A stretch of 64,000 nt of DNA from Limimaricola sp. G21655-S1 (GTDB lineage Bacteria; Pseudomonadota; Alphaproteobacteria; Rhodobacterales; Rhodobacteraceae): positions 62,001 through 126,000 of the forward strand of contig NZ_JAPWGO010000007.1 of assembly GCF_027213785.1 (NCBI RefSeq), given 5' to 3'. The position numbers and the translations under genes are program-made. How positions within the stretch are numbered: the stretch's first letter is position 1; each line of letters begins with the position of its first letter. This document shows, piece by piece, positions 28,554 to 37,997 of this stretch. The notes below the pieces were generated by a model that saw nothing but the letters and a program-made list of their open reading frames with translations, had not been told where the DNA came from and searched no databases.

Positions 28554-28627
28554 GGCGGGTTGGCGGAGAGGTTACGCAGCGGATTGCAAATCCGTGTAGA
28601 CCGGTTCGATTCCGGTACCCGCCTCCA
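28554..28627 (+). tRNA. tRNA-Cys (GCA anticodon)
   Basis: A full cloverleaf can be drawn. The acceptor stem is GGCGGGT paired with ACCCGCC, and the anticodon stem is GCGGA/TCCGT around the loop TTGCAAA (anticodon GCA at 28586-28588). The T-loop is GTTCGATTC, the discriminator is T, and CCA is encoded. The 3' half, from the anticodon stem onward, belongs to the 50-bp repeat found again at 37948-37997, so this copy was rebuilt by the inserted element. Confidence 0.95.
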
Positions 28628-28628
28628 T
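28579..28628 (+). repeat. Left attachment site (attL), 50-bp direct repeat
   Basis: The 50 bp from the anticodon stem of tRNA-Cys to one base past its CCA end are identical to 37948-37997. The core holds the dyad GGATT-GCA-AATCC of the anticodon arm, a usual crossover site for tyrosine integrases. The integrase gene ends 73 bp to the right. Confidence 0.93.
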
Positions 28629-28701
28629 TCTCTTTCAATGACTTGCGTCACGTCGCCTCCTTTCGAGGTTGAGCCGTTTACACCGGCGTTTACAGTGTCA
28701 G

Positions 28702-29769
28702 TCATGCGAGCCTCCCCTTCGCCTGCGCCAGCTTCACAAGGATGGCGTCAGATTCGTCGGGGGAGACACGGGCATAGCTCTCGATCACCGCTGCCGCGTG
28801 CCGGATGCTCCAGCCCATGTGCGAGGCGATCTCTGCGAGGGTCAGACCCGCGTTGAGCAGTCGGGTTGCTGCCGTTCCCCGGGCGTCCTGTAGCCGCAGA
28901 TCGAGGCCCAGCGCCGCAGGCGTCAGTCCTGCCTTGTCGCGCCACTGGCGGAGCCCTTCGGAGGCCCGGTGGGTGGTCAGTGGGCGACCGCGCTCACTCA
29001 GCAGGATCAGCATTCTATCTCGCGGCGTAGCGTCCAGGACCTCGGCCATGGCCGGCGTCACGGGGATCGTAGCCCGGCGGCCACGCTTGTTCGTGCGCAC
29101 CTGGATACGGCGGCCGCGCGGGGTTTCCTCGATGTGCTGCCAGCCAAGGCGGATCAGGTCACCGGGCCGCAGGCCGGTTTCACAGGCGGCAACCAGGATG
29201 CGCCGCACCCATTCGGGCGCCACTGCCATGACCGCATCCTGATGCATGGGCGACCAGACGATGTCGGAGCGGTCGACCTCATAGACCTTCGAGAAGCCGG
29301 CGCAGTGGTGAAGCCGGATCTTGCCGGCATCCTTCCACGCCCAGTTCAGGATGCGGGTCACCACGGTCCCGGCATAGTCAAACTGCTTGGGGGAGTGCGC
29401 CCAGGCTTGCCGCCACTCGTTGACCTCGGCACGGGACTCCGGCTCCTCGAACAAGGCAGCCGGGTCGTCCTTGAACGCCTCGGCGAAGCGCAGCGCCCAT
29501 TTCCGGTAGTCTTGGCGGGTGCGCTCTCCCTTCGGCATGTGCGGGCTCGAGAGGAAGTCGTCCACCATCTGGGGCGTCATGTAGGCGGCGGGCCTCGGGG
29601 TTTCGCAGGCCTTGCCCAGCGCGACGAAGAACTCGGGGTCAGTGGGATGGCGCTTGGTGTCGGTCCAGAACTTCGGGCCGCCCCGCCATGCGTAGAAGTG
29701 CCACCGGCTCCCGCCCTTCACGGCTCGGCGGACGCGATGGATCCCCTTTGGGAGGTCATACCGCGCCAC
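28702..29769 (-). CDS. Tyrosine recombinase/integrase
   Basis: This 355-residue site-specific recombinase catalyses insertion into tRNA-Cys. It has an N-terminal arm-binding and core-binding region (1-165), then a catalytic domain. The catalytic domain has the first Arg in ETGLRPGDLIRL, a Lys in NKRGRRATIPV, the second Arg in LQDARGTAATRLL, MGWS in place of the second His, and the nucleophile Tyr in VIESYARVS. The box normally written HxxR reads QDAR here. The GTG start at 29767-29769 follows GGAGG at good spacing and overlaps the end of the excisionase-like gene by 14 bp. Confidence 0.93.
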   Translation of the reverse strand: MARYDLPKGIHRVRRAVKGGSRWHFYAWRGGPKFWTDTKRHPTDPEFFVALGKACETPRPAAYMTPQMVDDFLSSPHMPKGERTRQDYRKWALRFAEAFKDDPAALFEEPESRAEVNEWRQAWAHSPKQFDYAGTVVTRILNWAWKDAGKIRLHHCAGFSKVYEVDRSDIVWSPMHQDAVMAVAPEWVRRILVAACETGLRPGDLIRLGWQHIEETPRGRRIQVRTNKRGRRATIPVTPAMAEVLDATPRDRMLILLSERGRPLTTHRASEGLRQWRDKAGLTPAALGLDLRLQDARGTAATRLLNAGLTLAEIASHMGWSIRHAAAVIESYARVSPDESDAILVKLAQAKGRLA

Positions 29770-30043
29770 GGCGCTGCCTCCGCTGTTCGGTCAGGCTCAG
29801 CTGGCGGCCGGTATCGGCTGCCGTGTCGTTGAGGCCCTGCGCCTCGTTCAGGCGGCGGCGGACGAGGTGCGGATCGTACCATCCGGGACGGCCGGGCACC
29901 GGCGTGATGCGATGCTTCGCGCAGAAGTCGCGGAAGGCATTGTTCGTCCCGGAGTACCCCCAAGCCTCGGCAAGATCGGCACCGGGGATCAGGCCGATCA
30001 TGTCAGCGAAGGTATGCGCGAGGATGGTAGAGCGGTTAGACAT
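29756..30043 (-). CDS. Excisionase-like small DNA-binding protein
   Basis: This 95-residue basic protein is encoded directly upstream of, and overlapping, the integrase gene. Its central part (IPGADLAEAWGYSGTNNAFR, then WYDPHLVRRRLNE) looks like a small winged-helix or HTH fold of phage excisionases. The ATG at 30041-30043 follows AGGAGG with ideal spacing. An excisionase or directionality role is inferred mainly from position. It could also be a regulator of integrase expression. Confidence 0.65.
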   Translation of the reverse strand: MSNRSTILAHTFADMIGLIPGADLAEAWGYSGTNNAFRDFCAKHRITPVPGRPGWYDPHLVRRRLNEAQGLNDTAADTGRQLSLTEQRRQRRGAV

Positions 30044-30110
30044 GCTTGGCCTCCTCCTGTGCGCCATGTTTGGCGGCCGCCAGGCTGAGAGATATGCGGG
30101 AAGGTTTCAT
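30036..30110 (-). CDS. Possible 24-residue leader peptide upstream of the excisionase-like gene
   Basis: A 24-codon frame (MKPSRISLSLAAAKHGAQEE and four more residues) starts at 30108-30110 behind AAGG and stops inside the beginning of the excisionase-like gene, overlapping its Shine-Dalgarno. It could couple translation of that gene. There is no homology evidence, so it may be a chance frame. Confidence 0.25.
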   Translation of the reverse strand: MKPSRISLSLAAAKHGAQEEAKHV

Positions 30111-30171
30111 CCGGGTTTCACCTTGGAGGGTGCGGCGGCCGTGCCGGCGCCGGGATGCCCCACATGAATGA

Positions 30172-30744
30172 TCAGCTGGCTTCGTTCGGATATGCCGCAT
30201 CGAGGACGTGGCGGAAGTCGACACCGAGGCGGCGGCAGACCTCCATGAAGACAGTCGAGGCGTTGACCACGATGTAGACGGGCGGATTGCCGAGATAGCG
30301 CATGGCTCGCAGCTCGCCGAACTCCTTGCTGAGCTCTGCATTGCGAGGCGCTTCGAGCACGGTCATGCCTTGGTCGCCGTTGACCAGAAGACGGGTCTCG
30401 CCGAGGTTGTGATGGAACGGAAGGGCAGGAAGCCGCATGGCGCTCGGGCTTTCGCCTCCCCAGCCGGAACCGCCATCCGAAAAGTGCGAGAAGCCTGCGG
30501 CCGCTCCGAAGGCTGCCTCTACGTTCCGGCTCCCCACATCCAGAATGGCCTTCGCGATCGCGACCTCCATCAGGTTGTTGAAGGAGAACTGGCGACGTTT
30601 CCCTTTGCCGCCGCCGCCGCCGACACGATGGCCGACCATGACGCGCAGGGCCCAGTTTTGAATATCCCTCGGGGTGGCGCCAGTCGCGGCTGCAACCTCG
30701 GAGGCAAGATAGGTGCGATGAATGATGTCCATGCATAAACTCAT
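30172..30744 (-). CDS. MerR-like helix-turn-helix DNA-binding protein
   Basis: This 190-residue protein has an N-terminal MerR-type HTH (TYLASEVAAATGATPRDIQN, then WALRVMVG) and a glycine-rich basic wing/linker (GGGGGKGKRRQF). A C-terminal domain of about 120 residues is not recognised. It is probably a transcriptional regulator or a replication/partition accessory of the element. Start choice between 30744 and 30732 is open because no strong Shine-Dalgarno is seen. It lies in the same leftward group as the integrase. Confidence 0.7.
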   Translation of the reverse strand: MSLCMDIIHRTYLASEVAAATGATPRDIQNWALRVMVGHRVGGGGGKGKRRQFSFNNLMEVAIAKAILDVGSRNVEAAFGAAAGFSHFSDGGSGWGGESPSAMRLPALPFHHNLGETRLLVNGDQGMTVLEAPRNAELSKEFGELRAMRYLGNPPVYIVVNASTVFMEVCRRLGVDFRHVLDAAYPNEAS

Positions 30745-30820
30745 ACGAGGCTTCTAAGTGGCCAGCAAGAGAAATCCTACGTGAGACTTCTTTACTTACC
30801 ACTTGTTGACTCGTCTCCTG

Positions 30821-31021
30821 TCAGACCGCGTTTCCGCCCTGCACCGCAGTCTGCTTCCGCAGCAGCCGCTGGGCCTCCTCCAGCTCCTTGTCGATGATGT
30901 CGGCAAGGGTGGAGATCGCCTCTCCGTCGCGCAGATCGTCGGGGCTGACGGTCATGCCGAACAGGTGGCAGAGGCTGCGCGCGCGGCTCAGTGCGTCGAG
31001 GGCATCAAGGGTGTCGCTCAT
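30821..31021 (-). CDS. Small element-encoded protein, unknown function
   Basis: This 66-residue acidic, helical protein (MSDTLDALDALSRARSLCHL at the start, then DIIDKELEEAQRLLRKQ) has no known motif. Its ATG at 31019-31021 overlaps the stop of the preceding gene (ATGA), which supports real, coupled translation. Confidence 0.6.
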   Translation of the reverse strand: MSDTLDALDALSRARSLCHLFGMTVSPDDLRDGEAISTLADIIDKELEEAQRLLRKQTAVQGGNAV

Positions 31022-31476
31022 GCTGCCATCCCCTCCGCCGAGCGGATGATGGCCCTTAGCAGCCGGAGGGCATCGTACTGGCTGGGGTCGTCATAGAGAT
31101 CGCCCGCCGCCGCATCGGTCCAGCCCTCTTCTTCCCACATGACATGAGCCAACAGGCGGATGCCCTCGACGGAAGTCGCCCGGCTGCGCATCATCTCGAA
31201 CAGTGCGGCTTCCTTGCGATCCCAAGCGGCTTCGCAGTCGGGCTCATCGGCATCGCCCGAAGGGCTCGTCTCAGCGAGATGCACCCACTGCGCACGAGCC
31301 TCCGCCCATTCCTGGTAGAGAGTGATGATCGGATCCGCCTCCGGGGGCGCCATGGCGGCAGGGTCAGCGCCCAGAGCGGCGGCCGAGGTAGCGCCCAGCG
31401 CGGCAACCGGCAGCGCGCCAAGGATAGCCCGACGCGTAACAGGCTGGATCGGATGGATAGAATCTGGTAGGGTCAT
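31018..31476 (-). CDS. Element-encoded protein with twin-arginine-like N-terminus
   Basis: This 152-residue protein starts with VTRRAILGALPVAALGATSA, an RR motif followed by a hydrophobic stretch, which resembles a Tat signal peptide. The rest is acidic and Trp-rich (LYQEWAEARAQW, HVMWEEEGWTDAA). Function is unknown. The ATG at 31474-31476 follows AGAAGG. It is coupled to the downstream 66-residue protein by an ATGA overlap. The similarity to Tat signals could be fortuitous. Confidence 0.65.
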   Translation of the reverse strand: MTLPDSIHPIQPVTRRAILGALPVAALGATSAAALGADPAAMAPPEADPIITLYQEWAEARAQWVHLAETSPSGDADEPDCEAAWDRKEAALFEMMRSRATSVEGIRLLAHVMWEEEGWTDAAAGDLYDDPSQYDALRLLRAIIRSAEGMAA

Positions 31477-31510
31477 GTTGGACCTTCTCTTCAGGTGGGT
31501 TTCAATCGAA

Positions 31511-31538
31511 GACCGTCAGGGTGGCCGCCCTGGCGGTC
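31511..31538. terminator. Hairpin between the Arc-type gene and the Tat-like gene
   Basis: An 11-bp stem (GACCGTCAGGG with CCCTGGCGGTC, one wobble) lies just after the stop of the small Arc-type gene. On the plus strand it is followed by TTTACTTTT and on the minus strand by TTCGATT. It may attenuate leftward transcription, or stop antisense transcription entering from the left arm. Confidence 0.5.
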
Positions 31539-31539
31539 T

Positions 31540-31695
31540 TTACTTTTGCGCGGAAGCCTCGGCGCGGTAAGCCGCCTGAAGCTGAAAACAGATCTCACTG
31601 TTCTGGCTCCGCCCGTTCTCCTCGGCCGATTCCTTCACTTGCTTCTTCAAGGACTCGGGCATCCGAAGTCCGAACGGCGTTCGATTTGGGATCAT
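31540..31695 (-). CDS. Small Arc-type ribbon-helix-helix DNA-binding protein
   Basis: This 51-residue protein contains the Arc family pattern FGLRMPESLKKQVKESAEEN followed by GRSQNSEICFQLQ: a beta strand that pairs in the dimer, then two helices. It is short enough to be missed by length filters. The ATG at 31693-31695 follows GGAGG with 7-base spacing. It is transcribed leftward, divergent from another Arc-type gene, with a palindromic operator between. It is probably a repressor that controls the integrase arm. Confidence 0.8.
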   Translation of the reverse strand: MIPNRTPFGLRMPESLKKQVKESAEENGRSQNSEICFQLQAAYRAEASAQK

Positions 31696-31712
31696 TGTTC
31701 GCCTCCATAGCT

Positions 31713-31738
31713 ACCATTGGTTGCTAGCTACCAATGGT
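31713..31738. promoter_or_regulatory. Operator between the two divergent Arc-type genes
   Basis: ACCATTGGT (31713-31721) and ACCAATGGT (31730-31738) form an inverted pair with centres 17 bp apart, each itself nearly palindromic and preceded by TAGCT. A further ACCAAG/CTTGGT dyad lies at 31767-31772 and 31783-31788 over the start of the rightward gene. The layout fits cooperative ribbon-helix-helix binding; binding itself is inferred. Confidence 0.6.
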
Positions 31739-31779
31739 CGGCATTGAGCGCAAGGATAATATCGCTACCAAGTGATGCT

Positions 31780-32199
31780 ATGCTTGGTGATTCTGAAGTC
31801 CCCCCTCGTACGCCGCCCTATGGTCTCCGCCTGCCGCCGGAGCTCAAAGAGCGCATCCAAGTGGCTGCCAAGGCGAGCAACCGTTCAATGAACGCTGAGA
31901 TCGTCGCGAGGCTCTTAGCCTCCTTCGACACCGCTTCGGCGGCGGCAGGCTCGAAAGAGATCCCTGGAGAGATCGTGCAGAGGGTCGCGGAGGGCATCTT
32001 TGCCTGCATGGCCGATGAAGGCTGGACACCGCCCCGAGCAGAGCCAAGTCCAGATATTGAGGAGAGACTGGATGTTCTCAATATGCACCTGAGGCACTTG
32101 CAGGGGACGATACTCGAACTCAATGAGCAGGTGAAATCTCTCAGGAATGCTACAACGGAGCCTGATCCGGACCCGCGCCCAGCACCACAAATGAGATAG
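31780..32199 (+). CDS. Arc-type ribbon-helix-helix protein with C-terminal extension
   Basis: This 139-residue protein has an N-terminal RHH domain (YGLRLPPELKERIQVAAKAS, then NRSMNAEIVARLLASF) and a C-terminal coiled region (DIEERLDVLNMHLRHLQGTI, then LNEQVKSL) likely used for oligomerisation. The ATG at 31780-31782 places the RHH strand near the N-terminus as in Arc; a GTG 63 bp upstream lies inside the operator and is unlikely. It is divergent from the 51-residue Arc-type gene. It probably controls the cargo or replication side of the element. Confidence 0.78.
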   Translation: MLGDSEVPPRTPPYGLRLPPELKERIQVAAKASNRSMNAEIVARLLASFDTASAAAGSKEIPGEIVQRVAEGIFACMADEGWTPPRAEPSPDIEERLDVLNMHLRHLQGTILELNEQVKSLRNATTEPDPDPRPAPQMR

Positions 32200-32406
32200 C
32201 CCCTGGAAGAAACACGCTTCCCCGGATCCGAAACAAATCAGAAGAGCGCCACCCGGTCCGCAGATCTGTTTCCTAAGTCATGAGTAACGGGGGGAGAGCG
32301 TGCCCTTGCAGCCATGACCTTGTCTCGCGACAGCTCCGTATCTTGACTCATCAAGGGACACTCCCGACGGTACGGCGGATACCGTTCTGCTACCTATTGG
32401 GGTCCC

Positions 32407-32826
32407 ATGATACGATTTGCTTCCTTGGCCGGGGCGCTGGCGCTTGCCGCCTGTACTTCCCAGACTCAACTCGAAACCACCGCCTTCCAGCGGCAATTCT
32501 CTCTCGCCGAGAACTACCAAGCCGTCTATGCGCGCTCCAACAGCCAGATGCGTGAGTGCTTCGCTGTCGGTATGGCTGAGTTCAACGTGGATGGGCAGCT
32601 GTATCCCGAGCTCGGGTACGGGGAGATCATCTTCGGCGTGAACGGCATGTTCGGTTATCAGCCATACAATCAGATCCGGATCGATAAGAACGGCACCGGC
32701 GCCACGGTCAGCCTCAAGTCCCTTACGCAGACCCCCCAGTCCAGCATGAACTGGCTGGAGTACTGGACCAAGGGTGGACAGAGGTGCCCGCGCATCTCCT
32801 ATGCAGAGACGCCGCCTGCCCTCTAA
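32407..32826 (+). CDS. Small lipoprotein, probable element cargo
   Basis: This 139-residue protein has a type II signal peptide: MIRFASLAGALALAACTSQ, with lipobox LAAC and the acylated cysteine at residue 16. The mature domain has a conserved-looking pair of cysteines (RECF and QRCPRIS) and aromatic residues but no family I recognise. It is predicted to sit on the periplasmic face of an envelope membrane. It lies between the regulators and the capsid operon, where satellites and prophages often carry host-protection genes. Confidence 0.75.
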   Translation: MIRFASLAGALALAACTSQTQLETTAFQRQFSLAENYQAVYARSNSQMRECFAVGMAEFNVDGQLYPELGYGEIIFGVNGMFGYQPYNQIRIDKNGTGATVSLKSLTQTPQSSMNWLEYWTKGGQRCPRISYAETPPAL

Positions 32827-32858
32827 GGGCCGCCACCTGAAGACCGGAGGAGATAGAC

Positions 32859-33074
32859 ATGGCACCCAATCACGGGTTCAAGTGTCGATGCGCCAGATGC
32901 GGATGGACCTCGAGGCGGGCTCCCAAGAACATCACCCGCCCGTGCCCGAAGTGCGGCGGGGCGGTTGGAGTCCACGAACAGGACAAAGAAGCCTACACCA
33001 CCTTTGCCGTGATATCGATCATCGGCCTGGTGGTACTCGCGATCGTCTTCACGGCGCTGGATGTTGGCCCGTAG
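32859..33074 (+). CDS. Zinc-ribbon protein with one C-terminal membrane helix
   Basis: This 71-residue protein has two Cys pairs (CRCARC, with CxxC spacing, and CPKCGG) that would form a zinc ribbon in residues 8-35. One hydrophobic helix follows (TTFAVISIIGLVVLAIVFTA). The Shine-Dalgarno GGAGGAG at good spacing supports the ATG at 32859. It is 32 bp after the lipoprotein on the same strand, so they are probably co-expressed. Function is unknown. Confidence 0.7.
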   Translation: MAPNHGFKCRCARCGWTSRRAPKNITRPCPKCGGAVGVHEQDKEAYTTFAVISIIGLVVLAIVFTALDVGP

Positions 33075-33090
33075 GGGCATCTTGCCCCTA
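33072..33090 (+). terminator. Hairpin at the stop codon of the zinc-ribbon gene
   Basis: A perfect 8-bp stem TAGGGGCA/TGCCCCTA with a three-base loop begins in the TAG stop. No T-run follows, so it is at best a weak or Rho-assisted terminator. Confidence 0.35.
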
Positions 33091-33486
33091 GCCATCGCTA
33101 GATCGAACAGCGCCGGCGTCATAGTCTCGCCCGATCTCTGCGGCAGCGCCTTCACGCCCTCGGGCTAGCGCTGCCGCTCGTGGGCCGTCCCCTTCCAGAT
33201 CGCGCCCATGGCCACGAGGGCCTCAAAACGGCGCTAAGTCGGGGCCAGACCCGAAATGTCTGAATTGCAGATGCGCGAGCTTAACGGGAGCAGTCGGTTG
33301 GAGAGGGGACGGCCTGGAGATTGACCCTCCCCTCCCCCGACAACGCCGCGCGATAGATGGTCGCCGCGCCCTCTCGGGGTTTTGCCGCACTCGCCGAGTT
33401 GCGGGGATGCTTCGGGCGAAGAAATCAAAAGCCCAGGCGCATCCTGCCGATGCGGTGCCACTACTCGAGCGGCACCGCATATCTCA
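33075..33486. other. 412-bp convergent intergenic region inside the element
   Basis: It lies between the rightward cargo genes and the leftward capsid gene. No protein-coding frame is convincing. It holds the hairpin at 33072-33090 and a 10-bp stem with an 11-base loop at 33450-33480. It is the region where a cos, pac or other packaging signal could lie, but no such site can be recognised by eye. Confidence 0.45.
33450..33480 (-). terminator. Hairpin downstream of the capsid gene
   Basis: A 10-bp stem (ATGCGGTGCC with GGCACCGCAT) around an 11-base loop ends 7 bp past the capsid stop on the minus strand. It has no T-run and may stabilise mRNA ends or assist termination. Confidence 0.4.
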
Positions 33487-34743
33487 TCAGCCCTGCACAC
33501 CCGTGACGGTGTAGAAGGCCCCAGCATGCTGAACGGCGATGTCGGTCCGCATGTGGGCGAGGAGGCCGTACTGCATGTTCTCAGCGTACCGCTCTTTCAG
33601 GACCGTCACCGTGATCTGCGAACGCATGCCGATCAGAAGGTGCGAGAAGTTGCCTGCGAAGATCGTGCTCTCGTTGCTACCTGCACCGCCATCGGTCGGG
33701 ATGGCCGTGGTGGTCAGCATCGGGATCTGCTCAACCGCACGCGGCGCCATGCGCGGCTGCTCGTTAGCATCCATCAGGCCGGTCAGCGTGCCCTCGTCGC
33801 GCGGGTGCATGATGATGGCAGAGACGGGCCCGGCGTTCGCGGAGAGGATGCCAGTGCGCGCGGCCACGAGGGGGCTGTAGCCTGTCAGAGCTCCTGCAAG
33901 GGCAGTGGTGCCGATGCCCGAGGTGTTGGCGATGCCGCGCGGCTCAGGGGCCGTGCCAGTGCCCAGCAGAGCCACCCGGTCGAGCTCCTTCGCCAGGGCG
34001 ACGGACAGGATGCGGGGAAGCTCGGTGGCGAGGTTCAGGCTGTCCTCCATGAGCTCGAAGCTGACCTTCGTCATGACGGCGAGGGACTTCGGCCGAAGCG
34101 GCACACGGGCAAACGTCGGATCGCTCTCAGCCACTGCCCCGGCCTCAGCACGCCACGCGGGCGTCGGGTCGGAAGCCAGCTTGGCGATGGAGTGATCGTC
34201 AGAGGTCAGCGGGACCGTCTGAGCGCCCGCCTGGTTCACGACGGAATTGGCCCGCAGGAGGTCGATCAGTCGCGCCGAGAGGACGGTCGGCACGGTGTAG
34301 CCGCCCGCGCTGTCCGAGCCTTCAGCGAGTGCCCGCTTTTCGGTGTCGGTCTTGGCGCCGATGACCATGGAGCGAAGATAGCCGCCCAGCGAGAGGCCAC
34401 GGTACTCGTCCGGCTTCTTCGCCTCGGCCCATGCGGTCATACGCTGCTCGGGCCGGAGCGCATGCCGAACTTCTTCGGCCGCCACGTCGCCGCCGTCGCC
34501 AGCCGCCACCGTGTCCTGACCGAGGGGTCGGCGCGGGTCGCCCTGGTCGTCCGCAGCGTCCCGCAATTCCTCGATTTGCGCCGTGAGTTCATCATGCTCC
34601 AGCATCAGCGCCTCGAAGTCGCGCTCGATCTTCCGGGCTTCGCTTTCCGGCGTGTCGTCCTTGATGCTGCGGTATTTCGCGCGGGCTTCCGCTGCGATCT
34701 CGCGCTGCTTCGCCCGAAGGGTCTTCATGTCGTGTTTGGTCAT
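33487..34743 (-). CDS. HK97-fold phage major capsid protein
   Basis: This 418-residue protein has an N-terminal coiled-coil delta/scaffold region (about residues 1-70, KTLRAKQREIAAEARAKYRS), a linker to about residue 125, then the HK97 fold. The fold region shows SAGGYTVPTVLSARLIDLLR, KSLAVMTKVSFELMEDS, GTGTAPEPRGIANTSG and the C-terminal VLKERYAENMQYGLLAHMRT. The long N-terminal region is normally cut off by a maturation protease, but none is encoded nearby. The ATG at 34741-34743 starts at the scaffold helix. It is the last gene of the leftward operon. Confidence 0.92.
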   Translation of the reverse strand: MTKHDMKTLRAKQREIAAEARAKYRSIKDDTPESEARKIERDFEALMLEHDELTAQIEELRDAADDQGDPRRPLGQDTVAAGDGGDVAAEEVRHALRPEQRMTAWAEAKKPDEYRGLSLGGYLRSMVIGAKTDTEKRALAEGSDSAGGYTVPTVLSARLIDLLRANSVVNQAGAQTVPLTSDDHSIAKLASDPTPAWRAEAGAVAESDPTFARVPLRPKSLAVMTKVSFELMEDSLNLATELPRILSVALAKELDRVALLGTGTAPEPRGIANTSGIGTTALAGALTGYSPLVAARTGILSANAGPVSAIIMHPRDEGTLTGLMDANEQPRMAPRAVEQIPMLTTTAIPTDGGAGSNESTIFAGNFSHLLIGMRSQITVTVLKERYAENMQYGLLAHMRTDIAVQHAGAFYTVTGVQG

Positions 34744-35014
34744 GCTCGTGCTCTTCGCCTGCGTCGGACGCACATGGAGACGCGCCCGACATTTCGGGTT
34801 GCGCCTCCTCCGTCGCTGCGAAGGGTCCCGACGATGTTTCCCGCCGGGCGCGTGCTCGTCTATTTCGGAGCATGCGTAAGCGGTAATAGTATACCCCACT
34901 ACCGCCCATGCCTCAAGCCCTCAACTTTTTGCCTCAGTTTTGCCCGCACAGAAATTTCAGGGCTCAGGTCGGTTCTGGATCGGCCCCGCTGAGAAGTCGG
35001 CACACCACCTCCCA

Positions 35015-35248
35015 TCATGCTCGCCCTGCCACGCCGCAGCGGGTCATCTCGTGAGCCGCCAGTCGGGACAGCGCCCGCTTGAGCCCGTCCACGCCTTCCA
35101 CCTCGATGTGCAGCTGCACCGCAGCCATGAGAAGCGCCGCAGCGAACAGTCGCAGGTCGCCGCCCTCAGCTTCCAGGCCTGATACCGCCTCACTGAGAAG
35201 GCCGGAAACGCGGTCCCTCTCTTTCACGATCATCTGTCGTTCGGTCAT
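35015..35248 (-). CDS. Small element-encoded protein, unknown function
   Basis: This 77-residue helical protein (MTERQMIVKERDRVSGLLSE, then LRLFAAALLMAAVQLHIEVE) starts at ATG 35246-35248 behind GGAGG. Its start overlaps the stop of the preceding small frame (ATGA), supporting coupled translation within the replication/capsid operon. No motif is recognised. Confidence 0.6.
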   Translation of the reverse strand: MTERQMIVKERDRVSGLLSEAVSGLEAEGGDLRLFAAALLMAAVQLHIEVEGVDGLKRALSRLAAHEMTRCGVAGRA

Positions 35249-35361
35249 GAGCGGTCCTCCATTCCAGCGCGCGCACCCAGCCGCCAAGCAAGGAAGAGCC
35301 AGCCCTTCGCCTCGGGCTGCTGCGCCGGCTGCACCACCACGCGGGCTTTGCCGTCCGCCAT
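35245..35361 (-). CDS. Very small element-encoded protein, unknown function
   Basis: The 38-residue frame starts at ATG 35359-35361 (MADGKARVVVQPAQQPEAKG, then WLFLAWRLGARAG). Its stop overlaps the next start (ATGA) and its start overlaps the stop of an HTH-like frame (TGATG), a chain typical of coupled phage genes. An in-frame GTG at 35521-35523 with AGGAGG ten bases upstream could extend it to 92 residues, but the extra part is less protein-like than the overlapping HTH frame. Confidence 0.45.
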   Translation of the reverse strand: MADGKARVVVQPAQQPEAKGWLFLAWRLGARAGMEDRS

Positions 35362-35519
35362 CACTTCGCACCCACTCCTGCGCTGGGCGCAACTCGCAGC
35401 GCGGAGCAGCTCCCGCCCGGGCCGCGCACCTTGTCGGTGGGTACGCCCAGCGCGGAGGCAATGCTGTTCAGGCCCCAGAGCGCCTCGGGTCCTGCCGTGG
35501 GGAGCGGCCAGAGCCAGCG
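35361..35519 (-). pseudogene. HTH-like reading frame without a visible start codon
   Basis: This frame reads WLWPLPTAGPEALWGLNSIA, then SALGVPTDKVRG, a pattern like the first helices of phage HTH proteins, and its TGA overlaps the next ATG. However, the frame is closed upstream by a TGA at 35520-35522 with no ATG, GTG or TTG before the motif. It may be a gene broken by a frameshift, may use a rare start, or may have a one-base sequence error. Confidence 0.35.
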
Positions 35520-35617
35520 TCACAACCGTCACACCTCCTAGAGGTGTGTGACGTTCGTGACGGTCAGACTGGCCCGCACTTGTGACGCACAGTGACGGGG
35601 TGTGACGTTCGTGACGG
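35519..35617. repeat. Iteron-like TGTGACG repeat cluster, possible replication origin
   Basis: An exact 18-bp repeat GTGTGACGTTCGTGACGG occurs at 35546-35563 and 35600-35617. A diverged copy TGTGACGCACAGTGACGG lies at 35581-35598, and an inverted copy with core CGTCACAACCGTCACAC lies at 35519-35535. A CACACCTC-CTA-GAGGTGTG dyad at 35530-35548 sits within the cluster. The cluster lies immediately downstream of the helicase gene. Clustered repeats beside primase and helicase genes are usual at origins of satellites and small replicons; replication activity is inferred. Confidence 0.6.
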
Positions 35618-35623
35618 CGGTGC

Positions 35624-36691
35624 TCAGTCTTCATCCTGCACCCGCCAGACATACTCACCGAACTCTCGCACCTCGTTCAGGTCCATCAGCTTGTCTTTGG
35701 CGCGCTTGAACGCCATGCGTGCCGAACTGTCGGCGACGCCTGAGGTCAGCCCGTGGACGCCGCAGGCCTCGCGCCAGTGGTCGATATGAACCACCTTCCT
35801 GTTGTGCGGGTAGAGATCGCCGGACTTGACCTCCCCATGGTCGCGCAGGGCGTCATAGAGCGCCTGCATCGCCACCTCGTTCTTGCCCGACAGCGGCTTG
35901 CGCTTGGGCTTGGGCGGTTCGGCTGTCTCGACCACCGCACTCGTCACCGGGTCGCCGTCCTCGTCCACCCCGAGCGTGACCGATCGGAGGGTGAAGTGCA
36001 GCGTGTCGGCATAGGCCATGTCGCGCTGCTTCTTGCACACGATCTCGCCCTCGGAGGTCACGTTGATCTCGGTATCGACAGCGGCACGGAGGGCGGAGGA
36101 ACCTCGAGCGCCCCGGTCCTCGTCCTTGCCCGTGTGGTGCACCACCATGACATGCGCGCCAGTCACTTCGCGGATCAGGTCGCAGTTGCGAACGAACATC
36201 GCCGCGTCCTTGGCCGTGTTCTCGTCGCCCGCGCCCATGCTGCGCGCCAGAGTATCGATCACCGTCAGGGCGAAGGCGTCGCCAGGCAGAGCTTCACATA
36301 CCGCGAGCGCATCTAGCTGGCCGTGCAGGTCCAGTCCTATCGGCAGCAGTACGAAGTCCGCCGAGGCCATTTCGGGGTGCTCGCGCTTGAACGCGGCGAG
36401 GCGGTTGCGAACACCCGCCCCGCCCTCGGCCGCGATGTAGAGCACCGGCCCGCCGTTCACCTTGCACCCGCGCCACGGCTTGTTCGCCGCGACATGCATC
36501 GCCAGATCGAGGGCCACGAAGGTCTTGCCGGCGTTCGACGGCCCGTAGAGCATTGAGAGTCCGCGCCGGGACAGCCAGCCTTTGACCAGGTAATTGAGGT
36601 TGAGCACCGGCCCGATGTCGGCGAGCTTCAGCATCCGCCCCTCGATCTCGGAGGCCCGGTTCGCATTGCGGTTCAGGTTGATGACGTTCAC
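35624..36691 (-). CDS. RecA-fold replicative helicase/ATPase (RepA/AAA_25 type)
   Basis: This 355-residue ATPase has Walker A LYGPSNAGKT at about residues 49-58, Walker B ALTVIDTLAR, and HHTGKDEDRGARGSSALRAA as in RepA/DnaB-like hexameric helicases. The C-terminal 90 residues look like a winged-helix DNA-binding region (MQALYDALRDHGEVKSGDLY). It would unwind the element origin together with the primase. The GTG start at 36689-36691 overlaps the primase stop (GTGA), so the two are coupled. It is directly followed by the iteron cluster. Confidence 0.88.
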   Translation of the reverse strand: MNVINLNRNANRASEIEGRMLKLADIGPVLNLNYLVKGWLSRRGLSMLYGPSNAGKTFVALDLAMHVAANKPWRGCKVNGGPVLYIAAEGGAGVRNRLAAFKREHPEMASADFVLLPIGLDLHGQLDALAVCEALPGDAFALTVIDTLARSMGAGDENTAKDAAMFVRNCDLIREVTGAHVMVVHHTGKDEDRGARGSSALRAAVDTEINVTSEGEIVCKKQRDMAYADTLHFTLRSVTLGVDEDGDPVTSAVVETAEPPKPKRKPLSGKNEVAMQALYDALRDHGEVKSGDLYPHNRKVVHIDHWREACGVHGLTSGVADSSARMAFKRAKDKLMDLNEVREFGEYVWRVQDED

Positions 36692-37485
36692 TGCAGGTGC
36701 CTCCGCGCGATCTCCGAGAGGTCGGCGCCGTGCTGGCGCGCCAGGGCGGGGATGGTCGCCCAGCTCACGCCGGTGCGCTTGAAGCTGCGCCACTTCATCA
36801 GAACCTCGCCGGGGCGATACTTGCTGCCGTTGGCGCTCCAGGCATCGGCCAGCGCCAGCCCCTCGTCGGAGCCCCGGAAGCGGTCATGCAGCGCCATCAG
36901 CACCGACACCCAGTCGCCATAGGGAAGATCGGGCGGGATGTGCGACAGCAGCTCCTGCACCTCGCCCGTGGGCGTCAAGCGATCGAGGTTGCGCGGCGGA
37001 GGGGGAGGCGCTTGCAGCAGCATGGCCCGGAGGCCGAACGGGACCGGCGGCAGCTGGAGCGGGACGCTGCCCGCGTAGAAGCCACCCGCGACTTGCGAGC
37101 CGGGCGCGATGACGTAGCCGCCTTCGCCGCGTGTATCGATCTTCGGCCCGATCTTGGACGTGCTGTTCCGGGCTCCCTCGAAGTGCTGGCAGTAGATGTG
37201 CCGGCCGCCCGAGGGCGTCATGACATAGGCGTGGTCGTAGAGGCTTGCGTAGCGCGGCATCGCCAGCAGGCTGTCACGCCCGATCCGTGCGCCGGTCTCC
37301 TTGTCCACGTCCAGGTCGATCACGAACAGCCCATTGGCCGCGCCGCACGGGATGCCCCATGCGCGCGCGCCGTTCGCGTGCCACTGCGTAATCGTGTGCG
37401 GATCGCGGGTCGCCTTGGCCTGCCAGCCCGAGATGAGCGGGGCCTTGTCGGGGCCGGCCGGGAATATCGCAAAGGGGAGGTTCAT
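36688..37485 (-). CDS. Bifunctional DNA primase/polymerase (prim-pol)
   Basis: This 265-residue protein has the archaeo-eukaryotic prim-pol fold in its N-terminal two thirds. It carries the metal-binding FVIDLDVD and the SGGRHIYCQHFEGARNSTSK segment with the catalytic His. A PriCT-like C-terminal domain (SHIPPDLPYGDWVSVLMALH) follows. It makes primers for element replication, paired with the downstream helicase. The ATG at 37483-37485 gives MNLPFAIFPAGPDKAP; the start overlaps the stop of the upstream small gene (ATGA). Confidence 0.88.
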   Translation of the reverse strand: MNLPFAIFPAGPDKAPLISGWQAKATRDPHTITQWHANGARAWGIPCGAANGLFVIDLDVDKETGARIGRDSLLAMPRYASLYDHAYVMTPSGGRHIYCQHFEGARNSTSKIGPKIDTRGEGGYVIAPGSQVAGGFYAGSVPLQLPPVPFGLRAMLLQAPPPPPRNLDRLTPTGEVQELLSHIPPDLPYGDWVSVLMALHDRFRGSDEGLALADAWSANGSKYRPGEVLMKWRSFKRTGVSWATIPALARQHGADLSEIARRHLQ

Positions 37486-37703
37486 GCTGCACCTCCGAGC
37501 ATCTCGGCCTCTTCCAGCCAGTGGGCGCGGGCGCCCCCCATGGCGCTCCCCCAGTCGGGGAAGCGACCCACATGCCATCCGAAACCTCGTTGGAAGTTGA
37601 AGCCATTCACCTCGACCGCATCACCATCCGGGTAGATGCTCAGCGCCTCATCCGGGTTCGGCAGAGGCAGGCGAAGCATGGTAGGAAACAGGACTACGCT
37701 CAT
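37482..37703 (-). CDS. Small first gene of the replication operon, unknown function
   Basis: This 73-residue protein (MSVVLFPTMLRLPLPNPDEA, then YPDGDAVEVNGFNFQRGFGW) has no recognised family. It is the first gene of the leftward primase-helicase-capsid operon, and its stop overlaps the primase start (ATGA). A Trp/Phe-rich tail (WHVGRFPDWGSAMG) suggests a small folded domain. Confidence 0.6.
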   Translation of the reverse strand: MSVVLFPTMLRLPLPNPDEALSIYPDGDAVEVNGFNFQRGFGWHVGRFPDWGSAMGGARAHWLEEAEMLGGAA

Positions 37704-37750
37704 ACGGCCATCCCCCAGTGCATAGCGATTATGGGATGACGAATGGCCCA

Positions 37751-37838
37751 GCGCGCGCTATGTTCAGCGCGAGCTATTTCCCGAGGCTCGACAGTTTCGA
37801 CGCCGCATGCCCCTGCCCGGGCTGCGGCGTTTCTCTTT
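37751..37838 (+). ncRNA. Candidate antisense/structured RNA upstream of the replication operon
   Basis: On the plus strand, opposite to the replication operon leader, a stem CGCGCT/AGCGCG (37754-37771) is followed by a strong ACGCCGCA/TGCGGCGT hairpin (37800-37830) and TTCTCTTT. The second hairpin looks like a terminator although no plus-strand gene precedes it. A short counter-transcribed RNA or a boundary terminator would explain it. No clear promoter was identified. Confidence 0.35.
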
Positions 37839-37947
37839 GCGCAGACCCCGCTTGATCTGTTTACTCCTGCCCGGTAACCCCTTGAATGTTCGTCGTGAAC
37901 TGACCGAGAACGTTTACCGGAAACGCCTTTCCTGTCAGTGGCTTGAG

Positions 37948-37997
37948 GCGGATTGCAAATCCGTGTAGACCGGTTCGATTCCGGTACCCGCCTCCAT
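37948..37997 (+). repeat. Right attachment site (attR), 50-bp direct repeat
   Basis: This is an exact copy of tRNA-Cys from the anticodon stem to one base past CCA (same as 28579-28628). It lacks the 5' half of the tRNA, so it is a duplicated 3' fragment and not a second tRNA gene. Host sequence resumes at 37998. Confidence 0.93.

Follow-up and report, generated by a model that had tools for sequence, protein, structure and literature searches.

The 64,000-nucleotide stretch of the Limimaricola sp. G21655-S1 genome analysed here (contig NZ_JAPWGO010000007.1, positions 62,001 to 126,000; hereafter the window) carries, inserted in a tRNA-Cys gene, a compact mobile element in which the one recognised structural gene encodes a major capsid protein (MCP) of the HK97 fold. 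In our judgement this element is probably a phage satellite, which would form a small shell from its own MCP, the N-terminal delta domain of that protein being matched to a helper phage that supplies the remainder of the particle. It is one member of a widespread family of elements, likely phage parasites with an MCP of their own, of which no description was found in the literature searched. More tentatively, and falling a little short of what we would call probable, this may be a proteobacterial satellite family with a chimeric MCP, combining a conserved satellite shell with an exchangeable delta domain derived from, or matched to, that of the helper.

The element is bounded by exact 50-bp direct repeats 9,369 bp apart, the first of which coincides with the 3' part of the tRNA-Cys gene, the sole tRNA called in the window by ARAGORN (coordinates are collected in the table). 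Insertion in tRNA-Cys between such att repeats had been claimed in the original prediction, made from the letters of the window, and is confirmed by the repeat search, by ARAGORN and by the sister genome G007, the nearest one, in which the site is empty and the left and right flanks, each 93% identical, overlap exactly in the 50-bp att (attB). The exact repeats and the empty site thus mark a precise insertion that the nearest of the relatives examined does not have. In G001, G003 and G006 the left and right flanking genes also stand close together, and a full prophage at the same site in close relatives, which would have spoken against a satellite, was not found; in G002, G004 and G005 the right flank differs from that of the element's site. 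About 13 kb separate the conserved left-flank gene from tRNA-Cys in G005 (locus L221), which indicates that the neighbourhood of tRNA-Cys is rearranged in that genome. No close relative of the MCP was found in any of the seven other genomes of the genus searched, the sole match, in G003, being a weak one (30% over 164 residues) on a different contig.

The integrase adjoins the tRNA gene and reads toward it. On the minus strand, which holds most of the genes, primase and helicase are followed by the origin, the 77-residue protein and the MCP; next comes a stretch with plus-strand open reading frames (ORFs), one of them for an Arc-type regulator, and after it small ORFs, the MerR-like protein, a 103-residue ORF and, last, the integrase. 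The predicted tyrosine integrase, prim-pol primase, RecA-fold helicase and single HK97 MCP are confirmed by their Pfam E-values, and the origin-like repeat cluster is likewise real, being (at about 35513-35617) 82-92% identical over 85-105 bp to the region following the helicase in eleven loci of the IMG/VR database, with shorter matches in seven more. In the AlphaFold model (mean predicted local distance difference test, pLDDT, 88) the MCP has an HK97 fold and its N-terminal delta domain consists of two helices; the nearest Foldseek matches are the capsids of roseophage R4C, D3, RcGTA and HK97, the SaPI1 capsid ranking eighth. The MCP gene is intact, with pairwise dN/dS of 0.17-0.37 to four relatives (dS 0.9-1.6), and the decay of capsid or replication genes, a second outcome that would have told against a satellite, was not found.

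Hidden Markov models (HMMs) for the large and small terminase subunits (TerL, TerS), portal and tape measure, built from related loci and applied at E<=0.01, gave no match within the element, and iteration of the TerS model again yielded none; as a control, the TerL and portal models match every one of the eight distant MCP loci whose flanks extend for 5 kb or more to each side. Nor did the scanned ORFs of the element give a Pfam or PHROGs match for protease, connector, lysis or HNH functions, so that the predicted lack of portal, terminase, protease, tail and lysis genes is borne out. The element is thus an integrated mobile element with an incomplete set of virion genes, as phage satellites in general are. 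Phage-inducible chromosomal islands (PICIs) possess their own att site, an integrase and their own replicon within about 8-18 kb; all of these, size included, are found here.

Scans with the window MCP as a single sequence gave no match in genome or viral contigs; a search with an alignment of five MCPs (A1) yielded 50 genome loci and 339 loci in viral contigs, of which the best 80 were kept. The family as understood here comprises 38 of the genome loci (L152-L189; MCP identity 36-67%) and the IMG/VR loci L072-L078. By record name 28 of the 38 are Alphaproteobacteria, the others including beta- and gammaproteobacteria, Nitrospirae and Planctomycetes, and the nearest named relatives agree with the predicted placement in Rhodobacteraceae. 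Silicibacter lacuscaerulensis ITI-1157 and Sulfitobacter mediterraneus DSM 12244 each carry a member of the family. Some loci are short: flanks of 4 kb or more to each side of the MCP are available in 24 of the 38, and flanks of 5 kb or more in 22. The HMM found TerL near the MCP in none of the 38, and a portal in two, inside the element in L163 and upstream of the integrase in L153. Among the 12 remaining genome loci TerL and portal are found in nine, and in eight of the eight with at least 5 kb on both sides. The portal gene of L163 (7428-8606; PF04860, 6e-83) stands between MCP and TerS, and no TerL was found in that locus.

Both ends could be placed in 20 elements, that of the window included, which measure 7,727-10,606 bp (median 9,452). 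The 19 relatives end in repeats of 32-59 bp in 12 cases and of only 15-19 bp in seven, where the ends are less certain; their targets are tRNA genes for Thr, Ser, Arg, Asn, Cys, Leu, Val, Trp, Lys and Pro, the repeat of L160 lying outside any called tRNA. The architecture, for which a search in other genomes had been suggested, recurs at these other tRNA genes in the order integrase, replication genes, small protein and MCP, followed by TerS in many elements and by a tape-measure gene in some. The replication modules differ: split prim-pol and AAA_25 proteins in the window, a fused prim-pol/D5 protein in L070, DUF3987 in L071. The small-protein family directly upstream of the MCP is present in 17 of the 38 genome loci (marginally, at 0.012, in L155) and in the window (1e-25); fold searches with this predicted hairpin gave no significant match, so that its likeness to the two-helix delta domain is one of architecture only. 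TerS of the phrog_83 or Terminase_4 type is found in 17 of the 38 genome loci and in all seven of L072-L078, and tape-measure genes follow MCP or TerS in 10 of the 45 loci, named by PHROGs in L152, L154, L172, L176, L177 and L181 and by homology to these in L072, L074, L166 and L174; L171 has a tail tube protein like gp10 of the gene transfer agent (GTA; PF11836). No structural or packaging gene besides the MCP was recognised in six of the 20 complete elements (L168, L175, L180, L184, L186 and the window), and the state of the window element is therefore not unique, a strongly diverged TerS beyond the models being possible. Two consecutive TerS-like genes per satellite occur in L164 (11118-12090, both phrog_83) and L075 (5272-6262), and on the contig of L077 a tRNA-Asn separates two satellite MCPs.

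In a FastTree phylogeny of 171 MCPs, 45 satellite rows and 17 mid-distance IMG/VR rows (L079-L095) form a 62-row clade with a support of 99, outside which all rows of the phage and prophage panels fall, and the window MCP lies within a 32-row clade of satellites only (support 100). Two of the mid-distance rows, L089 and L091, are elements of 10.2-10.6 kb with tRNA repeats at their ends; they carry integrase, TerL and portal genes and, as judged from the sequence, a protease-like gene. The MCP matches among phage records (207) and plasmid records (257) all fell short of 60% identity, and none of the 30 phage rows listed reached 28%.

The affinities of the replication module lie elsewhere. Its helicase is 63-77% identical to that of 23 of 26 IMG/VR loci; 19 IMG/VR rows with the window-type helicase, most of them also with the primase, form a separate MCP group (support 100), and the eight helicase-sharing loci that were mapped all carry TerL, MCP and portal. 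The integrase is 65% identical to that of L043, which also has 45 of 47 bases of the att sequence. Since these affinities differ from those of the MCP and the small protein, the element is by sequence comparison a mosaic, with a replication module and, as L043 indicates, also integrase and att from the side of elements resembling capsid-forming PICIs (cfPICIs), and with MCP, small protein and MerR-like regulator from satellites of the MCP/TerS type. Many of the 23 IMG/VR loci L043-L065 measure about 9-11 kb, with helicases 63-77% and, where found, primases 71-82% identical to those of the window.

The delta domain (window residues 1-66) and the shell were compared separately with a panel of 35 phage MCPs, each from a locus in which TerL or portal had been detected. 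Median identity to the window was 32% in delta and 23% in the shell, delta exceeding shell in 24 of the 35, and the best siphophage rows reached 36-50% in delta and 20-25% in the shell. Elsewhere delta is the more similar part in 4 of 13 phage fragments and in 6 of 34 MCP loci from the family search, and in none of 19 cfPICI-like, 10 mid-distance IMG/VR or 43 satellite rows, the satellites showing a median identity to the window of 26% in delta and 58% in the shell (n=43). Measured against shuffled sequences, a phage-like delta (z>5) is present in 26 of 45 satellites, 3 of 13 relatives bearing TerL or portal, none of the 4 remaining mid-distance rows, 2 of 19 cfPICI-like rows and 12 of 37 MCP loci from the family search.

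Close relatives within the family differ in the same part of the gene. Identity between L075 and L164 is 93-100% from -449 to -150, falls to 41-75% from -89 to +210, and returns to 88-98% up to +690 and 95-100% beyond; L154 and L155 follow the same pattern, with 43-81% within the delta region and 83-100% over the shell. Likewise, the first MCP copy of L077 and the MCP of L078 have shells 98% and deltas 54% identical (third-position identity 95% versus 69%), while the second L077 copy has a delta identical to that of L078 and a more different shell; because the L078 shell is like one copy and its delta identical to the other, recombination is indicated. Of 17 close satellite pairs, 8 have a lower third-position identity in delta than in the shell, all of them within the groups L074/L075/L164, L076/L077/L078 and L154/L155. 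On these alignments the MCP is modular, with an exchangeable delta, some near-identical satellites differing by a replaced one. L154 and L155 lie on different scaffolds of one Mangrovicoccus assembly, their MCP shells being 98% and their deltas 61% identical.

By analogy with the SaPIbov5 protein Ccm, described below, we propose that the satellite MCP makes, or helps to make, a small shell and that its delta domain must fit the helper. On entry of a siphophage the element would excise from tRNA-Cys and replicate from its iteron origin by means of its own prim-pol and helicase, the hairpin protein and MCP being expressed; the MCP, alone or jointly with that of the helper, would build a small shell suited to a genome of 9 kb, and the helper would provide portal, prohead protease, terminase, tail and lysis. 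Delta would be the helper-facing part, whether in assembly or in cleavage by the helper protease, and it is because protease and portal are missing from the element that we propose it as a scaffold partner or protease substrate fitting the helper. Recombination could replace delta so that it suits the helper, the shell domain remaining specific to the satellite. Relatives would contribute their own TerS, and thereby packaging choice, and some of them a tape-measure protein for the tail, whereas the window element, with neither, would rely on a helper TerS recognising its DNA. We infer a satellite with its own shell and a helper for the rest, the shell being made either wholly by this MCP or by co-assembly with that of the helper: the bounded elements with TerL and portal in the same clade suggest the former, the helper-like delta the latter.

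A number of points weigh against this proposal. The helper and its identity, induction, excision, transcription, particle formation, shell size and the role of delta are all predictions from sequence, and the element has no TerS though many relatives do. Of the 17 mid-distance rows, 13 have a TerL or portal match, and most of these 13 are short fragments, possibly of phages; some branches between the satellite and mid-distance groups are weakly supported (50 and 57). Changes specific to the window MCP number 25 synonymous and 35 non-synonymous, so that selection on this branch is weakly tested. As to delta, 19 of the 45 satellite rows have no clearly phage-like one; lower delta identity, where present, in the other 9 of the 17 close pairs is explicable by faster protein evolution; the window delta (75 residues) found no match at E<=0.01 in 50,697 phage records; and the phage panel was recruited by the satellite MCP profile, with the best 80 kept, which may favour delta-similar phages, the rows compared being moreover related and not independent. 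For these two last reasons the delta result is support, not proof. Finally, the sole PF04860 portal of the host genome sits in a TerL-portal-protease-like-MCP cluster, which by its resemblance we take to be GTA-like, and neither a PF03354 TerL nor a resident helper was found in that genome, so that a phage helper would come from outside or be of another type.

The closest precedent known to us in logic is Ccm of the staphylococcal island SaPIbov5, which is described as homologous to the helper MCP and of the HK97 fold, its delta being shorter and removed by cleavage; in the smaller SaPIbov5 shell Ccm forms the pentamers and the helper MCP the hexamers, and Ccm alone forms no capsids (PMC8569155, PMC5052747). 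As in such cos-type islands, the element has a single HK97-fold protein with a delta domain that is a homologue of the helper's MCP, and the helper would make the rest of the particle. It differs in phylum and gene set, in an MCP clade of its own, in the often conserved small partner and in the TerS and tape-measure genes added by relatives; among the 50 Foldseek matches listed no Ccm entry is named, no direct test of homology to Ccm having been made. A possibility we take seriously while doubting it is that the satellite MCP, like Ccm, cannot close a shell alone and co-assembles through delta, shrinking and hijacking helper heads and so interfering with the helper. The mixed shells of Ccm, the helper-like delta and the complete elements with MCP but no recognised TerS are all in keeping with this, but L089 and L091, with TerL, portal and protease-like gene of their own, presumably build whole shells from an MCP of the same clade, and the window shell is only 20-25% identical to the best siphophage rows.

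cfPICIs are described as encoding MCP, protease, portal, connectors and terminases, that is, all components of capsid formation and packaging (PMC10690885). The element shares with them tRNA integration, a capsid gene of its own and a prim-pol, helicase and origin module common to cfPICI-like IMG/VR elements, but of this head and packaging set, as there described, the MCP is the sole part detected, while a portal, protease, connectors, TerL or TerS and HNH gene of its own were not found. That it is a cfPICI which recently lost TerL, portal and protease seems improbable: although its replication module recurs in elements with TerL, MCP and portal (eight mapped) and L043 matches its integrase (65%) and att as well, the MCP differs (median shell identity 21%, the 19 cfPICI-like rows splitting off with a support of 100) and groups with the MCP/TerS satellites, for which reason a module swap fits better than a deletion. 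Our best reading is that the element may be likened to SaPIbov5 Ccm in logic and is probably not a cfPICI.

It is very improbable that the host GTA, not a phage, acts as helper. The only PF04860 portal of the genome lies in the presumed GTA-like cluster, and such portals occur in 26 of the 33 whole genomes searched, the source genome included (PF03354 TerL in 9 of the 33); seven of the 33, however, have no PF04860 portal, the delta of the GTA-like MCP is unlike the phage panel (z 0.7), and the TerS and tape-measure genes of relatives are of phage type. Nor do we regard the element as a decayed prophage, and descent from a deleted HK97-type prophage, which the single structural gene, the missing TerS and the lack of a resident helper found might suggest, is scarcely credible. 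The site is empty in the sister genome, 19 more bounded elements of similar size are inserted at various tRNAs, the MCP falls outside the phage and prophage panels, att, integrase and replication genes are intact, and no remnants of other late genes were found.

Among other satellites, PICIs and SaPIs resemble the element in size class, att site, integrase and own replicon, and some relatives have TerS and AlpA-like regulators (named from sequence), but it has an MCP of its own in place of Cpm-type redirectors. Like the PICMIs of Vibrionaceae, very small satellites of marine bacteria, it is very small; a typical PICMI is described as lacking capsid remodelling genes (PMC10803314). The pCD630-type plasmids of Clostridioides difficile are a possible parallel: they too are small (several of 7.7-8.3 kb) and annotated with a 'phage major capsid protein' (H61-H75), but they are plasmids of Firmicutes, and their MCP, by which alone they were compared, is 26-29% identical to that of the window over the shell. 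The satellite families listed in one review are P4-like elements, PICIs, cfPICIs, PLEs, PICMIs, VEIMEs and tycheposons (PMC11389934), and a word search of a survey of Rhodobacteraceae prophages found neither satellite nor PICI (PMC8224337). No description of the present MCP satellite family was found in the literature searched, in the portions available, the original cfPICI, VEIME and tycheposon papers lying outside that search.

One virus record (G456, about 24.5 of 49 kb of it read) contains both a siphophage head-tail module (L227, with TerS, TerL, portal, protease-like gene, MCP and tail genes) and a 9.4-kb satellite (L072). That the L072 contig is a concatemer was rejected, the 49-kb record having one copy of the satellite MCP and a second MCP 33% identical to it. 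The two loci have at least 127 identical bases in common, from the ATG of the tape-measure gene, and this 127-bp exact repeat has two upstream contexts, the satellite TerS or siphophage tail genes. The two may be a helper pair, or an assembly join at a common k-mer; the length of 127 bp would suit an assembly k-mer, and the repeat is thus a hint only.

Features of the element in the window (positions are those of the whole stretch)
Feature	Position	Strand	Evidence
tRNA-Cys (anticodon GCA), integration target, intact	28554..28627	+	ARAGORN; same gene at site in 7 other genomes of genus
attL core, 50 bp	28579..28628		exact direct repeat; attB present in G007
Tyrosine integrase, 355 aa	28702..29769	-	PF00589 9e-15, phrog_1 8e-23
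103-aa ORF adjoining integrase, putative excisionase	29756..30067	-	no Pfam, PHROGs or PADLOC match
MerR-like regulator, 190 aa	30172..30744	-	weak MerR_1 0.047; cluster C17, common to satellites L072, L075, L154, L155, L164
66-aa ORF	30821..31021	-	no significant match (Pfam, PHROGs, PADLOC)
152-aa ORF, hydrophobic N-terminal stretch	31018..31476	-	no significant match (Pfam, PHROGs, PADLOC)
Arc-type ribbon-helix-helix protein, 51 aa	31540..31695	-	PF03869 7e-12
Arc-type ribbon-helix-helix regulator, 160 aa, strand opposite to MCP	31717..32199	+	PF03869 4e-10
139-aa ORF, lipoprotein-like start (by eye), possible cargo	32407..32826	+	no Pfam or PADLOC match; local G+C drop
71-aa zinc-ribbon-like ORF, hydrophobic stretch, possible cargo	32859..33074	+	weak Pfam matches only
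HK97-fold MCP, 418 aa	33487..34743	-	PF05065 (Phage_capsid) 3.5e-33; AlphaFold mean pLDDT 88; Foldseek; tree
MCP delta (scaffold) domain, residues 1-66, two helices	34546..34743	-	AlphaFold helices 4-25 and 33-67; siphophage delta identity
77-aa predicted helical-hairpin protein	35015..35248	-	family HMM 1e-25; AlphaFold pLDDT 92, helices 3-27 and 32-70
Putative iteron-type replication origin (GTCAC/GTGAC repeats around inverted repeat)	35513..35617		repeats; conserved in IMG/VR loci
RepA-type AAA_25 helicase, RecA fold, likely start near 36691	35624..36793	-	PF13481 6e-39
Prim-pol primase with PriCT_2, likely start near 37485	36688..37578	-	PF09250 1e-23, PF08707 7e-17
73-aa ORF upstream of primase	37482..37703	-	no match (Pfam, PADLOC)
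attR core, 50 bp, tRNA-Cys 3' remnant	37948..37997		exact direct repeat

For the MCP, the start at 34743 is more likely than the first GTG of the frame. The regulators recognised in the element by Pfam are of the MerR-like and Arc types only, and PADLOC gave no match for eight small ORFs. The ORF cluster C23 was rejected as a gene, being the iteron origin read as protein. The two plus-strand ORFs at 32407-33074, of lower G+C, occupy the position of TerS in several relatives, and are possibly cargo that replaced it.

Should the proposed chimeric MCP be real, recombination of a few hundred bases would retarget a satellite to a new helper, and together with the optional TerS and tape measure it would mean that satellites could set shell, packaging choice and tail length of a hybrid virion by using one to three structural genes, the tape-measure genes constituting a new control point over tail length. 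The modular delta would offer a testable handle, at the level of sequence, on how a capsid is matched to a foreign assembly line and on changes of helper. Provision of the shell protein only may be a third widespread strategy, between the PICIs that remodel heads and the cfPICIs that make whole ones.

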